Below are positions 39,113 to 44,388 of a DNA stretch of 46,308 nucleotides, in pieces. How positions within the stretch are numbered: the first letter of the stretch is position 1; each line of letters begins with the position of its first letter. A model generated the notes under the pieces. It saw only the letters and a program-made list of their open reading frames with translations, did not search any database and was not told the DNA's origin. Made by a program: the position numbers and the translations under genes. Source of the DNA: Bacteroidales bacterium (GTDB lineage: Bacteria; Bacteroidota; Bacteroidia; Bacteroidales; FEN-979); the NCBI GenBank assembly GCA_025355465.1, contig JANXZO010000047.1:1-46308 (forward strand), given 5' to 3'.

Positions 39113-41014
39113 TCAGTAAGCCCTTACGTTTCTTCCCTCAATGTAATTTATAAAAGCCCGGTTCACTACCTTGTTCCCTCCGGGTGTTGGGTAGTCCCCT
39201 GTAAAATACCAGTCGCCTGTATGTTTAGGGATTGCTTCATGCAGGTCATCAATCGTCTGGAAGAGAATGTGCACCTTCGCCTCACAGGAGGCCGGAGTGA
39301 GTAAGTCTGATATCTTTTCAGAGATTTTCTCATCCGTAAAGGGTTTGTAAATATCCTTCACATGGTTGATGATCTTTTCTTTTGGCAGTTTTTCCTGGGC
39401 TTTTGATTTAACATAAACCTCATTGATGATGTTTTCCTGATGGGTTTCCCTGAGGAGTTCAATGGCAGCCTTGAAGGCAATGAAATCGGTGATTTTGGCC
39501 ATGTCGATCCCGTAGCAGTCCGGATAGCGGATCTGCGGGGCAGAGGAGGCGATCACGATTTTTTTGGGTCCGAGCCTGTCAAGGATCCGGAGAATGCTCT
39601 GCTTTAATGTAGTACCACGAACAATGCTGTCGTCGAGTACCACGAGGTTGTCAATACCCCTTCGGATACTGCCGTAGGTAATGTCATAAACATGGGCTGC
39701 GAGGTCATCACGCTGGGAATCCTGTGTGATGAAAGTACGTAGCTTGACATCCTTTACCGCAACTTTCTCGGCCCTGGGTTTTAATTTTAAAATTTCTTTA
39801 AGGGTCTTGCTATTCAAAGATTTACCCGCTTCCAGTATCCGCTCTGCCTTGATTTTATCGCAAAATCTGTCAACCTCCTCTATCAATCCATAATAAGCAT
39901 CGATGGCCGTGTTGGGGATGTATGAAAAAACAGTGTTTTCAAGGTCATGGTCGATGCTTCTGAGGATGGCGGGTGTAAGGTTTTTACCCAGGTGCTTTCG
40001 CTCGCGGTAGATCTCCTTGTCGGTCCCCCTGGAAAAATAAATATGCTCAAAGGAACAGGACTTTTTAAGGGTTGGCTTGCTGAACTCCTTTTCGGAAACA
40101 CGACCATCTTTTTTGACGATCAGGGCATGTCCGGGTTTAAGTTCATGAATGCTGGCGAAGGTTACATTAAAGGCAGTCTGGATAACTGGCCGTTCTGAAG
40201 TTACAACCACTACTTCGTCATCCTGATAGTAATAGGCTGGCCGGATACCGGCAGGATCGCGCATCACAAAGGCATCTCCGTGGCCGAACATGCCGGCAAT
40301 AACATATCCTCCGTCCCACAACTTGGCCGACCGGCGTAGAATTTTCCGGACATTCAGATTTCTGGCAATCTCGAACGTGATAGCACGTTTGCCAAAACCT
40401 TTTTCCTTGAATTTCTGATAAAGCTCTTCATTTTCTTCATCCAGAAAATGGCCCATCTTCTCAAGTATTGTAATGGTATCGCTCGTTTCAACAGGATATT
40501 GACCGAGGTCGATGAGTTTTTCAAACAGCTCATCAACATTGGTAAGGTTAAAGTTCCCGGCAAGGACGATATTTTTAGTCATCCAGTTGTTTTCGCGAAC
40601 AAAAGGATGGATGGAGAGAAGGCTATTCTTGCCAAAGGTTCCGTAACGAAGATGACCCAGGTAGAGTTCTCCCAGCATTTCTACGTTGGACTTCAGCCAT
40701 TGAACGTCGTTGAAGCGGCCCGGGGTCCTCTCCTCAATTTCTTTAAGTCCTTTCCCGACTTTCCCGAAAATTTCCTGAAGCGCATTTCCGGCATTGGACC
40801 GAACTCTGTTTATAAACCTTGTTCCCGGCTCAAGATCGAACTTTATGGTCGCAATACCGGCTCCATCCTGTCCGCGGTTATGCTGCTTCTGCATGAGAAG
40901 GTGCAACTTATTAAGTCCGTAAAAGGCGGTACCGTATTTTGCGAGATAGTATTCAAGCGGTTTGAGAAGCCGCACCATGGCGATACCGCATTCATGTTGA
41001 ATTACATCGCTCAT
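39113..41014 (-). CDS. PurF-type amidophosphoribosyltransferase, long Bacteroidota form
   Basis: The 633-residue protein has an N-terminal class II glutamine amidotransferase domain: Cys9 in HECGIAMV is the expected nucleophile after removal of a short propeptide, followed by QKQHNRGQDGAGI. It also has a C-terminal phosphoribosyltransferase domain with the PRPP loop VVLDDSIVRGTT (about 457-468). CSFEHIYFSRGTD and PDCYGIDMAK match PurF blocks. It is over 100 residues longer than ordinary PurF, with extra sequence between and after the domains. The standard role is the first step of purine synthesis. Because Bacteroidota often carry a second, standard-length PurF, this one may be a paralogue; that cannot be decided here. 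Divergent from mnmH. Confidence 0.85.
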   Translation of the reverse strand: MSDVIQHECGIAMVRLLKPLEYYLAKYGTAFYGLNKLHLLMQKQHNRGQDGAGIATIKFDLEPGTRFINRVRSNAGNALQEIFGKVGKGLKEIEERTPGRFNDVQWLKSNVEMLGELYLGHLRYGTFGKNSLLSIHPFVRENNWMTKNIVLAGNFNLTNVDELFEKLIDLGQYPVETSDTITILEKMGHFLDEENEELYQKFKEKGFGKRAITFEIARNLNVRKILRRSAKLWDGGYVIAGMFGHGDAFVMRDPAGIRPAYYYQDDEVVVVTSERPVIQTAFNVTFASIHELKPGHALIVKKDGRVSEKEFSKPTLKKSCSFEHIYFSRGTDKEIYRERKHLGKNLTPAILRSIDHDLENTVFSYIPNTAIDAYYGLIEEVDRFCDKIKAERILEAGKSLNSKTLKEILKLKPRAEKVAVKDVKLRTFITQDSQRDDLAAHVYDITYGSIRRGIDNLVVLDDSIVRGTTLKQSILRILDRLGPKKIVIASSAPQIRYPDCYGIDMAKITDFIAFKAAIELLRETHQENIINEVYVKSKAQEKLPKEKIINHVKDIYKPFTDEKISEKISDLLTPASCEAKVHILFQTIDDLHEAIPKHTGDWYFTGDYPTPGGNKVVNRAFINYIEGRNVRAY

Positions 41015-41129: not shown

Positions 41130-42197
41130 ATGAAACGACCCTTGATTAACCCGGTAGCCCCCGACTACTTTCTGGAACAATCTGAATTCACCCCGGTGGT
41201 TGATGTAAGGGCTCCGGTTGAATTTAACCGCGGGCATATTCCGGGCGCTGTGAACATACCGTTGTTCGACGACCGGAGTCGTGCGGCCGTGGGAACGGTT
41301 TATCGCAACGAAGGGCATGATGCTGCGGTTGCCCTTGGCTACGGGATTGCAAACCCCAGGCGGCAGCATTATCTGGAAACTCTCGCGAACAATGTGGCAG
41401 GCAGTGACATTCTGTTGCATTGCTGGCGAGGCGGAATGCGGAGTGCTGAAATGGCCAGACTTTTCAGTGAGTCGGGGTATACCGTGCAGGTACTTTCAGG
41501 TGGATATAAGGCTTACCGGAGGTATATCCGGCAGGAACTGGGGCGGCCTGCAGATGTTTTCGTCCTGGGAGGTTTAACCGGCAGCGGAAAAACTGAATTG
41601 CTGACACTCCTTAAACACAAAGGCGAACAGGTCATCGACCTGGAACAGCTTGCATGTCATAAAGGATCTGTTTTTGGCGCACTGGGACAGATGCCGCAGC
41701 CAACGAATGAACAGTTCGAAAATGATCTCTACCTTGCTTGGTCGCAACTTGATCTCAGCCGTCCGGTCTGGATTGAAGATGAAAGCCGGATGATCGGCAC
41801 CATCACGCTGCCCGACCCGGTTATTTCGCACCTTAACGGGGGAACTCTTGTAACTGTGGAACTTGAATTTTCACGCAGAATTGAACGACTTGTGTCAGAA
41901 TATGCCCGGTTCGGCAGGACCCAACTCGCTGAGGCCATTTGCAAGATAAGCGAAAGGTTGGGAGGCACCCATACGAATGCGGCGTTGGCGGCGCTTGAGA
42001 AGGGATTGTATGATGAGGTTGCCGGGATCATGCTGGCTTATTATGATAAAGCCTACCGGCATTCCATGAGCCGGCGAAACCCTGCGAAAATTGTTTCCGT
42101 CGGTCCTCTTGATGGGAAAAATGAAGACAACGTTGTCAGAATTTGTGAATCTGCTTATAAACATTTGAAAAATGGATCCGATCTACCTCGATTTTAA
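41130..42197 (+). CDS. mnmH: tRNA 2-selenouridine synthase
   Basis: The 355-residue protein (also called SelU or YbbB) has an N-terminal rhodanese domain with the catalytic Cys in LLHCWRGGMRS (about residue 97) and a C-terminal P-loop domain with GGLTGSGKTE (about 148-157). It replaces the sulfur of 2-thiouridine at tRNA wobble position 34 by selenium from selenophosphate, through a geranylated intermediate. I start at the ATG at 41130 because the preceding bases contain a consensus promoter and the family starts about here. Its last 26 bases overlap the start of the next gene, whose SelD half makes selenophosphate, so substrate and consumer are translationally coupled. Confidence 0.95.
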   Translation: MKRPLINPVAPDYFLEQSEFTPVVDVRAPVEFNRGHIPGAVNIPLFDDRSRAAVGTVYRNEGHDAAVALGYGIANPRRQHYLETLANNVAGSDILLHCWRGGMRSAEMARLFSESGYTVQVLSGGYKAYRRYIRQELGRPADVFVLGGLTGSGKTELLTLLKHKGEQVIDLEQLACHKGSVFGALGQMPQPTNEQFENDLYLAWSQLDLSRPVWIEDESRMIGTITLPDPVISHLNGGTLVTVELEFSRRIERLVSEYARFGRTQLAEAICKISERLGGTHTNAALAALEKGLYDEVAGIMLAYYDKAYRHSMSRRNPAKIVSVGPLDGKNEDNVVRICESAYKHLKNGSDLPRF

Positions 42198-44388
42198 CGC
42201 CACAACCCCTATTGATCCTGGTGTTGCTGAAGTCATGCGCCCTTTTCTTGACCTGGCTTTCGGAAACCCGAGCAGTTTGCATAAGTTTGGCGTCGAGGCG
42301 AAACTAGCCGTCGAAAAGGCACGCAAACAGGTGGCCATCCTGCTGAATGCCTTCCCGGATGAAATTATTTTCACCAGTGGCGGCAGTGAGTCGAACAACA
42401 TGGCCATTAAAGGTGCTGCCTTTGCACTTCGTGAGCAGGGAAACCATATCATCACTTCGACGGTTGAACACCCGGCAGTGACCGAGGTCTGCCGCTACCT
42501 GCAAGGTGTTGGTTTCCGAATTACATGGTTGCCGGTGGATGCCTTTGGAAGAGTGAACCCGGCAGATGTGGAATCGGCACTGACAAAGGAGACCATCCTG
42601 ATATCAGTAATGCATGCCAATAATGAGACAGGTACAATCCAGCCTGTGCAGGAAATCGGGGCCCTCGCCCGGAAGCACAATATACTTTTTCATTCGGATG
42701 CTGCCCAGTCGGTGGGTAAAATTCAGGTTGATGTTAAGGAGATGCAGACCGACCTGCTTTCGGTCGCCGGACACAAATTTTATGCCCCCAAAGGAGTTGG
42801 TGTGCTGTATGTTAAGCGAGGTGTCAAACTTGAAAAGCTCATTCACGGTGCCGACCATGAATCAAACCTCAGGGCGGGAACCGAAAATGTGATGCAGATT
42901 GCAGGACTCGGAGCCGCAGCCGAACTTGCTATGCATTACTTGTCGCAGGCCACCGTAGCCCCGGGTTCTATTTCTGGACAAATGAAAAAATGCCGCGACA
43001 TGTTGCAGGAAGGGCTCATGAACGATATCCCTGAAATCCGCCTTAACGGGCATCCGGAAGAGCGTTTGCCAAATACGGTTAGCCTTGGTTTTCCAGGGGT
43101 AGAAGCAGCGCTCCTGCTGCAGGAGATCAAGGGTGTTGCAGCTTCGGCGGGTGCCGCCTGTCATACCGAGGATGCTGAAATATCAGGCGTTCTGAAAGCC
43201 ATGAACGTCCCGGAAGCGTATGCGATCGGAACGGTAAGGTTTTCGACAGGCCGCACGACTACCGAAGAGGAAATTTTGCGGGCCATACCGATGATTTCGG
43301 AGGCATACCGAAGGCTGACAGGGGATGCTGCTTTTGAAGGAATTCCAGAACACCCCGATGTCAGGCTTACGGAATATACACATGCCCTTGGGTGTGCCTG
43401 CAAGATCAGACCCCAGCTGCTTGATAGAATTCTTCAGGAGCTTCCTGCGGGATCGGATCCCGACGTATTGGTGGGTTTTGAAACGGCGGATGATGCGGCT
43501 GTTTACAGGCTGGATGCTGAGCGTGCAATAGTACAGACAGTGGACTTCATTCCGCCTGTGGTGGATGATCCCTATGCTTACGGCGCCATCGCAGCGGCAA
43601 ATGCCCTGAGTGATGTATATGCCATGGGCGGGAAACCTTTGTTTGCACTGAGTATCGTGGGGTTTCCCGATAAAAAACTTCCCATCGGGGTACTGCATCG
43701 AATCCTTAAAGGAGCAAATGACAAGGTGGCGGAGGCGGGGATAAGGATCATCGGTGGACACAGTGTCGAGGACAGTGAACCGAAATTCGGACTCGTTGTC
43801 ACCGGGATGGTTCATCCTGGAAAGATCCTTCGCAATTCGGAGGCTAAACCAGGAGATATGCTGGTATTGACCAAACCAATCGGAACCGGGATCATTACTA
43901 CTGCTATAAAGCGTGGACTGGCCGATGAAAAAACCAAAAATACGGTGATGGAGATCATGGCCGGGTTGAACCGAAAGCCGGGAGAGATTATGCTTGACTT
44001 TGCCGTGAATGCTTGTACCGATGTAACCGGATTTGGGTTACTTGGTCACCTTCGTGAAATGGTGAAAGGAGGGGGCGTGTCTGCGGAACTTTTTTCGGAT
44101 AAAATCCCGTTTATTTCTGAAGCCTGGGGTTACGCTGCTGCAGGCGCCATTCCGGGAGGGACCAGAAACAACATGCTATATGTGGCCGACATTATACGAT
44201 GGGGTGGAAGTATCCCCGAATTGATGAAGGTATTGCTGTCGGATGCCCAGACATCCGGCGGATTGTTAATCTCCATTCCTGAAAAGGATGCTATGAATAT
44301 GGTTACTGCAATGCACGATGCCGGCATCAGTTATGCCTCCATCATTGGGAAAATATCGGATGGAGAACCGTTGATCCGCGTGAATTAG
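42172..44388 (+). CDS. selD: Fusion of selenocysteine-lyase-like cysteine desulfurase and SelD
   Basis: This 738-residue protein has two enzymes in one chain. Residues 1 to about 385 are a PLP-dependent NifS/IscS-class desulfurase: IYLDFNATTPIDP, EHPAV, HANNETGTIQP, the PLP lysine in GHKFYAPKG (about 202) and the active Cys in SAGAACHTED (about 329). That last block resembles the GAACH site of eukaryotic selenocysteine lyase. Residues from about 395 to the end are selenophosphate synthetase: LTEYTHALGCACKI (catalytic Cys and Lys about 407-410), ADDAAVY, ANALSDVYAMGG, GGHSVEDSEPKFG and TDVTGFGLLGH. The joint reaction would free selenium from a seleno-amino acid and phosphorylate it. SelD here uses Cys, not Sec. 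No SelA or SelB is in the window. Confidence 0.95.
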   Translation: MDPIYLDFNATTPIDPGVAEVMRPFLDLAFGNPSSLHKFGVEAKLAVEKARKQVAILLNAFPDEIIFTSGGSESNNMAIKGAAFALREQGNHIITSTVEHPAVTEVCRYLQGVGFRITWLPVDAFGRVNPADVESALTKETILISVMHANNETGTIQPVQEIGALARKHNILFHSDAAQSVGKIQVDVKEMQTDLLSVAGHKFYAPKGVGVLYVKRGVKLEKLIHGADHESNLRAGTENVMQIAGLGAAAELAMHYLSQATVAPGSISGQMKKCRDMLQEGLMNDIPEIRLNGHPEERLPNTVSLGFPGVEAALLLQEIKGVAASAGAACHTEDAEISGVLKAMNVPEAYAIGTVRFSTGRTTTEEEILRAIPMISEAYRRLTGDAAFEGIPEHPDVRLTEYTHALGCACKIRPQLLDRILQELPAGSDPDVLVGFETADDAAVYRLDAERAIVQTVDFIPPVVDDPYAYGAIAAANALSDVYAMGGKPLFALSIVGFPDKKLPIGVLHRILKGANDKVAEAGIRIIGGHSVEDSEPKFGLVVTGMVHPGKILRNSEAKPGDMLVLTKPIGTGIITTAIKRGLADEKTKNTVMEIMAGLNRKPGEIMLDFAVNACTDVTGFGLLGHLREMVKGGGVSAELFSDKIPFISEAWGYAAAGAIPGGTRNNMLYVADIIRWGGSIPELMKVLLSDAQTSGGLLISIPEKDAMNMVTAMHDAGISYASIIGKISDGEPLIRVN

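Follow-up and report, generated by a model that had tools for sequence, protein, structure and literature searches.

A desulfurase–SelD fusion gene overlapping mnmH in a Bacteroidales genome

The fusion gene and its overlap with mnmH

The window analysed here is a stretch of 46,308 nucleotides from a Bacteroidales bacterium (assembly GCA_025355465.1, contig JANXZO010000047.1, GTDB lineage FEN-979). On its forward strand, the open reading frame (ORF) at 42172–44388 encodes a group-I desulfurase joined to a complete Cys-type SelD. Pfam places Aminotran_5, the family of class-V aminotransferases, at residues 4–368 and the two domains of SelD, AIRS and AIRS_C, at residues 440–547 and 559–732. The desulfurase or selenocysteine-lyase-like domain (residues 1–382; 42172–43317), which matches Aminotran_5 and the NifS model, is followed by a linker at about residues 383–395 (43318–43356) and by the SelD domain (residues 396–738; 43357–44385), which passes the model TIGR00476 with 386.5 bits against a cut-off of 125. 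An earlier reading made from the letters of the DNA (hereafter the sequence-only reading) had proposed this joined frame, and it is borne out by both sets of domain models and by the 738 codons uninterrupted by a stop. For the desulfurase half, the best model is NifS (464.7 bits, below the cut-off of 530.75); the IscS model is matched with 385.1 bits, far below 643.2. The score for NF040779, the model of bacterial SclA, a class-V pyridoxal phosphate (PLP) enzyme named for selenocysteine cleavage, is 103.9 bits, below 525.

Upstream on the same strand, mnmH (selU/ybbB) encodes a tRNA 2-selenouridine synthase of 355 amino acids at 41130–42197; its ORF is open from 41028, and ATG 41130 is the likely start. 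The product passes the MnmH model TIGR03167 (336.1 bits, cut-off 219.75), its rhodanese Cys98 aligns with Cys97 of E. coli SelU, and its P-loop reads GLTGSGKT. The fusion begins before the mnmH ORF ends, and the two share the 26 bp from 42172 to 42197 that the sequence-only reading had counted.

The catalytic residues of both enzymes are retained. In the desulfurase domain, the PLP lysine K202 (42775–42777) aligns with K206 of E. coli IscS, and the catalytic Cys330 (43159–43161), located in the motif SAGAACH, aligns with C328. H100, D176, Q179 and R356 also match IscS positions, and ten PLP and active-site positions of IscS are all kept except T76 (Ser here) and S203 (Ala here). In the SelD domain, Cys408 (43393–43395), which occupies the Sec/Cys position of the active site in the motif GCACK, aligns with C17 of E. 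coli SelD; C410 and K411 correspond to C19 and K20, and D441, D458, N477, D481 and D617 match as well. These are the SelD positions that we take to matter for activity.

The AlphaFold model of the fusion has a mean pLDDT of 83.9 and a pTM of 0.54. Its N-terminal half superimposes on human NFS1 (Z 53.0, rmsd 3.0, 380 aligned residues), E. coli IscS (Z 51.5, rmsd 2.1, 371 aligned) and rat SCLY (Z 49.2, rmsd 2.1, 374 aligned). Matches of the desulfurase half fill most of the structure comparison list, and residues 396–738 were compared with Aquifex aeolicus SelD 2yye (Z 44.7, rmsd 1.9, 334 aligned). Four stretches with pLDDT below 50 are modelled as mobile, namely the donor loop around Cys330 (328–334), residues 386–395 of the linker, the acceptor loop around Cys408 (403–412), and residues 224–236.

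An assembly artefact or a frameshift joining two genes can be given practically no probability. A re-reading in which every stop was counted keeps the single frame in relatives, at 77 distinct places (79 rows minus two repeats). The linker varies from 9 to 92 amino acids across these frames and is not conserved.

Selenium traits and spread of the fusion

The window's genome (3.54 Mb, 98.77% complete) contains mnmH, SelD and mnmA (344 bits, cut-off 236.95). The genes of selenocysteine (Sec) decoding were looked for throughout this genome and not found: selA gives no match in a profile search; the best selB match, in a 400-residue frame of EF-Tu length, reaches 185.2 bits against a cut-off of 242.25; and the best match to tRNA-Sec reaches 45.4 bits against 47. 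Of ten matches to the tRNA-Sec model, eight were fetched, and they belong to tRNAs for Ser, Trp, Cys, Tyr and Leu. With a genome 98.77% complete, this absence is not absolute. Of the Sec and selenouridine (SeU) traits, selenouridine is the sole selenium sink found here; yqeB/yqeC of the Se-cofactor trait lay outside the search.

The pairing with mnmH is conserved in the family. With all stops counted, the fusion is present in 36 of 37 family genomes, the window's included (in G010 and G034 it is cut by the contig end), and mnmH lies directly upstream in 35 of these 36, which upholds the coupling read from the single locus. The exceptions are G025, whose mnmH is on another contig, and G024, which has neither gene. 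Other families of the order carry the fusion in 6 of 24 genomes (G046, G049, G050, G056, G058 and, cut, G041). Spacing was counted at 18 loci where mnmH was found by motif and both ends were usable: the genes overlap by 10–26 bp in nine and are 1–21 bp apart in nine. This count leaves out L010 and L023 (start or order unusable), and the motif missed mnmH elsewhere. In a set of 61 genomes, made up of the window's and 60 relatives, mnmH is over the cut-off in all 42 fusion carriers, and five further mnmH genomes have a separate SelD gene (in pieces in G053). The remaining 14 show no mnmH over the cut-off and no SelD among the matches listed, a list from which the weakest matches are missing. In the profile search, selA exceeds the cut-off in none of the 61.

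Beyond the family, a genome collection was scanned and the best 80 of at least 561 confirmed loci were kept, so that all counts are lower bounds. The fusion lies in one frame at 35 loci, 33 of them full and two (L077 and L107) cut, and its SelD half is Cys-type in all. By record title, the 35 frames fall into 15 phyla or candidate divisions, with one record unassigned and Spirochaetota represented by the cut frame L107 only; Bacteroidota account for 15. One locus, L060, is the family genome G015. The same two-domain order is present in 33 further genomes tested, from some 14 phyla by title. Nearly all of the records are titled as metagenome-assembled genomes (MAGs), and single phylum labels may therefore be wrong. 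In 34 scan genomes (L107 left out), selA is over the cut-off in 18, mnmH in 16 and both in three, so that 31 have at least one of them. Without the G015 repeat the counts are 18/33 for selA and 15/33 for mnmH; the fusion thus goes with either trait and is no selenouridine device outside the family, and in other phyla it probably supplies selenocysteine synthesis, either in place of selenouridine or alongside it. The term selenouridine-only, which the sequence-only reading had applied to the pathway, fits the window's family and not the fusion in general. Conversely, among 197 other genomes sampled evenly from the window's phylum (at least 90% complete, five candidates scored per genome), none shows a match spanning both halves at E 1e-90, so that the family and the sample point in opposite ways on prevalence in the phylum.

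Fusions of this kind are already known; the papers cited here are drawn on for the portions that an open literature search returned. Zhang & Gladyshev (2008) report NifS-SelD only in Geobacter sp. FRC-32, with CxxU in SelD (PMC2398784), and Mariotti (2015) describes a NifS-SPS fusion in two prokaryotic instances, Acanthamoeba and Naegleria (PMC4561486). Both share the order seen here, with the desulfurase N-terminal and SelD C-terminal. The prokaryotic genomes with an extended SelD carry selenoproteins and the Sec machinery (PMC4561486), which describes past cases and is not a strict definition. Compared with these hosts, selA, selB and tRNA-Sec were not found in the window's genome, the gene overlaps mnmH, and the SelD motif is the Cys-type GCACK in place of CxxU, without CxxC. 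The NADH dehydrogenase–SelD fusion likewise places an N-terminal partner on a Cys-type SelD, but the partner is a different one and CxxC is present (PMC2398784). Neither PMC2398784 nor PMC4561486, in the portions retrieved, mentions mnmH next to NifS-SelD or a host that has selenouridine only. The mnmH-coupled, selenouridine version and the wide spread are new relative to the literature found. The fusion seems far more widespread than that literature says and common in uncultured bacteria, which corrects the picture of isolated oddities tied to selenoproteins (PMC2398784, PMC4561486). That such fusions are rare, as the sequence-only reading had stated, agrees with the published reports and with the 197-genome sample; the family and the collection scan contradict it.

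Two selA stretches were also observed in MAGs. In one titled Lentimicrobium (L196, G067:C86, 2343–6679), selA lies beside a SelB gene, with a neighbouring gene that has a type IX secretion sorting domain; in one titled Bacteroidales, which has a tRNA-Sec (L197, G089:C378, 2–2479), selA lies beside a cut SelB-like GTPase gene. Both differ from published surveys, in which Bacteroidetes lack Sec decoding (PMC5322559, in the part retrieved). The G+C of both stretches is like that of the fusion contig; mis-binning is possible.

Active-site signature and descent of the two halves

Animal SCLY has the same PLP fold as the N-terminal half (Z 49; 36–37% identity in the structural alignment), and the human chain also reads GAACH, with His after the Cys. 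E. coli IscS is 44.9% identical to the N-terminal half and, like NifS, has an SGSACTS-type loop in place of SAGAACH. The (S)GAACH loop with His331 is kept across phyla, and His occupies the position of human SCLY H389 in 40 of 40 fusions (L109, where two genes are merely adjacent, is left out of this count). At the position of SCLY D146, all 40 have Pro (Pro101 in the window's protein); at that of V256, 39 have Ala (Ala199 here) and one has Val. Both SCLY rows show Asp, Val and His at these three positions. Ten IscS/NifS rows show Asp in six and Ala, Lys, Pro and Ser in one each at D146, Asn in six and Ser in four at V256, and Ser in eight and Thr in two at H389. Pro at the D146 position also occurs in an IscS-type row (L151) and is not unique to the fusion lineage.

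The sequence-only reading had likened GAACH to the active site of eukaryotic selenocysteine lyase. The loop alone does not establish specificity for selenocysteine, since D146 decides in human SCLY: D146K is necessary and sufficient for cysteine use, and H389T without D146K has no detectable cysteine activity (PMC3266270, portions retrieved). The IscS-like proteins of this order carry Asp at the D146 position, so that this single-residue rule does not simply transfer. Overall, the N-terminal half is nearer to E. coli IscS (321.6 bits) than to SCLY (203.1 bits). What stands of the label lyase-like is the SAGAACH loop and a place in the trees apart from the rows of IscS, NifS and group II; the Pro at D146 and the overall similarity speak against it. 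According to a 2022 review, in the part retrieved, bacteria and archaea have no specific Sec lyase (PMC9312934); NCBIfam, by contrast, now contains a bacterial Sec lyase model, SclA, which the window's protein fails.

Relatives of the N-terminal half also occur as stand-alone proteins. In 20 of 23 such genomes (L083 left out), SelD is over the cut-off, and 16 of these 20 have a SelD with an in-frame TGA. A link of the stand-alone forms to selenium is thereby suggested, by a count taken without the base rate of the same lineages. One of the 23 (L110) has GAACT instead of GAACH, and in L101 mnmH is one gene away from the stand-alone relative.

These data bear on the view that the N-terminal half is an unspecific cysteine desulfurase linked to SelD, with cysteine sulfur as its main job, perhaps for MnmA, and selenium handled in passing. 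Its greater similarity to IscS than to SCLY and the lack of D146 favour this view. At E 1e-20, moreover, G028, G032, G002 and G006 contain only the fusion and one 31–36% match in a 409–420-residue frame, presumably SufS, and the IscS-like ORF of the window's genome lacks about 100 amino acids including the PLP lysine; with that ORF defective or only SufS left, sulfur for MnmA would come from SufS or from the fusion. We nevertheless regard this account as unlikely, because the fusion tracks mnmH (in a survey that did not extend to mnmA and FeS genes), the (S)GAACH loop and His331 persist across phyla, and the stand-alone relatives occur so often with SelD.

The shortened IscS-like ORF (G000:C43:11427–12290; L002 1030–1893, minus strand) is 287 amino acids long. 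The missing part is in frame, the copies in relatives are longer, and the shortening reflects either a deletion or an assembly error.

Three trees were computed, with bootstraps not fully converged in any of them. In the SelD tree (74 sequences), the 39 fused halves group in a single clade (100/99) whose neighbours are mostly Sec-type SelDs; the SelD side was therefore probably fused once, with Cys fixed. In the first desulfurase tree (84 rows), the fused halves and all but a few stand-alone relatives form one clade (61 rows, 98/93); E. coli IscS, the order's own IscS-like proteins, NifS and the four group-II rows all fall outside it. In the desulfurase trees, the two NifS rows group on a separate branch. 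SCLY joins the fusion lineage in the same 84-row tree (99/97). A second tree (56 rows), built without the columns of the catalytic loop and those around D146, retained a 47-row clade including SCLY (95/98), which here too stands apart from IscS and NifS. SCLY sits on a long branch, and approximately unbiased (AU) tests allow other positions for it (p 0.38–0.58), so that close kinship of the N-terminal half with SCLY is at most possible. The tree with SCLY, IscS, SufS and NifS proposed from the sequence thus places the N-terminal half outside the IscS rows in both versions, and not inside housekeeping IscS; it leaves the position of SCLY loose, and its group II consists of four rows without E. 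coli SufS. In the second tree, a single clade of fused N-terminal halves is rejected (p-AU 0.0025), since stand-alone forms fall among them, and with it a single origin of the desulfurase half. The contig-cut L085 was labelled stand-alone in both desulfurase trees and grouped with the fusions in the last AU test; L109 bore a fusion label in the first, corrected in the second. The two halves appear to tell different stories, either because SelD halves were lost or because N-terminal halves were exchanged.

The fusion may merely equalise the amounts of two enzymes, with no selenium passed directly between them, which is quite possible without being the probable case: the linker is variable, and both halves come from homodimeric enzyme families. 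Against it, the fused SelDs are a single clade and the two domains have stayed joined in many phyla, which suggests a benefit; the model also predicts mobility for both active-site loops, along with other stretches.

A proposed route of selenium

The fusion is likely to be a dedicated selenium-donor enzyme for selenophosphate, here feeding MnmH. From the family chemistry and the conserved residues, the PLP domain would take selenium off selenocysteine, and probably sulfur off cysteine as well, with the chalcogen ending up on Cys330 in its mobile loop. Selenium may then pass across the flexible linker to the SelD domain, at the mobile loop that bears Cys408 and Lys411; by established SelD chemistry and with its residues conserved, this domain would form selenophosphate with ATP. 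By established MnmH chemistry, the MnmH encoded upstream would finally put selenium in place of the sulfur in s2U34, the product of MnmA. This reading is preferred because the fold and the catalytic residues of all three activities are kept, because presence of the fusion tracks mnmH in the 61 genomes, and because selA or mnmH in the scan genomes and SelD in the stand-alone genomes accompany it so regularly. Precedents add to it: in T. brucei, the binding of SCLY to SelD depends on the N-terminal region of SelD, and in E. coli, selenophosphate can be made from selenocysteine with the support of NifS-like proteins (PMC7595633, the latter as cited there; portions retrieved).

The fused domain may instead carry selenium from reduced selenite to SelD as a perselenide relay, with no use of free selenocysteine. 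Desulfurases and Sec lyases do form Cys-S-Se adducts (PMC3266270, in the part retrieved), and with no Sec-decoding genes found in the window's genome, internal selenocysteine is not expected in quantity. A bare carrier would have no need of the PLP site and the substrate Arg356, which are invariant in 17 aligned fusions, and the relay is judged improbable.

Several observations weigh against the dedicated donor. Three of the 34 scan genomes have neither selA nor mnmH over the cut-off, and the 20 proteins encoded next to stand-alone relatives, taken from 10 of 24 loci, include no match to a selenium-pathway model. No selenium preference appears readable from the sequence, with Pro and Ala at the SCLY D146 and V256 positions. 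The pTM is only 0.54 and both families are homodimeric, which makes contact between the two active sites conjectural.

A broader picture is offered tentatively, as one we would not expect to hold in full. The SAGAACH proteins, with Pro, Ala, Cys and His at SCLY D146, V256, C388 and H389, might be a bacterial lineage of dedicated selenium-donor desulfurases, the functional counterpart of animal SCLY, whose fusion to SelD, made once on the SelD side, channels selenide, has been exchanged between phyla and serves the selenium trait present in each host, which here is selenouridine alone. A natural donor–acceptor fusion, in genomes where one tRNA modification is the sole selenium use found, lends itself to direct tests of which enzyme delivers selenium to SelD in bacteria in vivo and of whether selenide, which is toxic, escapes during the transfer, and the signature supplies a means to recognise a possibly selenium-dedicated desulfurase lineage.

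Several look-alike loci were set aside. In G060, a supposed second, independent fusion of a group-II desulfurase and SelD ('open frame 798') consists of neighbouring genes separated by a TGA stop that the supposed frame runs through, and so does a supposed SelD-first fusion in Bacillota (L109). At L159 (G060) and L142, the group-II desulfurase gene, presumably EF2568-like, directly precedes selD with the TGA between, which is the order of the fusion in separate genes; a SirA/YedF-like gene precedes the desulfurase at L159. Unannotated stand-alone desulfurases with the motif STGSACH, about 57% identical to the N-terminal half of the fusion, occur at L135 and L136 (Rhizobium and Microvirga plasmids; rhizobial megaplasmids). 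A neighbour of the stand-alone relative L106 belongs to the molybdopterin oxidoreductases, a superfamily that includes some selenoproteins. In a phage collection, three places cover at least 80% of the query, two of them split in two pieces; the third, in Enterococcus, is two adjacent genes, and the records, labelled phage, look bacterial. Within the window, the minus-strand gene at 39113–41014 encodes a long, atypical, glutamine-amidotransferase-like product, a divergent PurF relative that reaches 134.9 bits of the 350-bit amidophosphoribosyltransferase cut-off.

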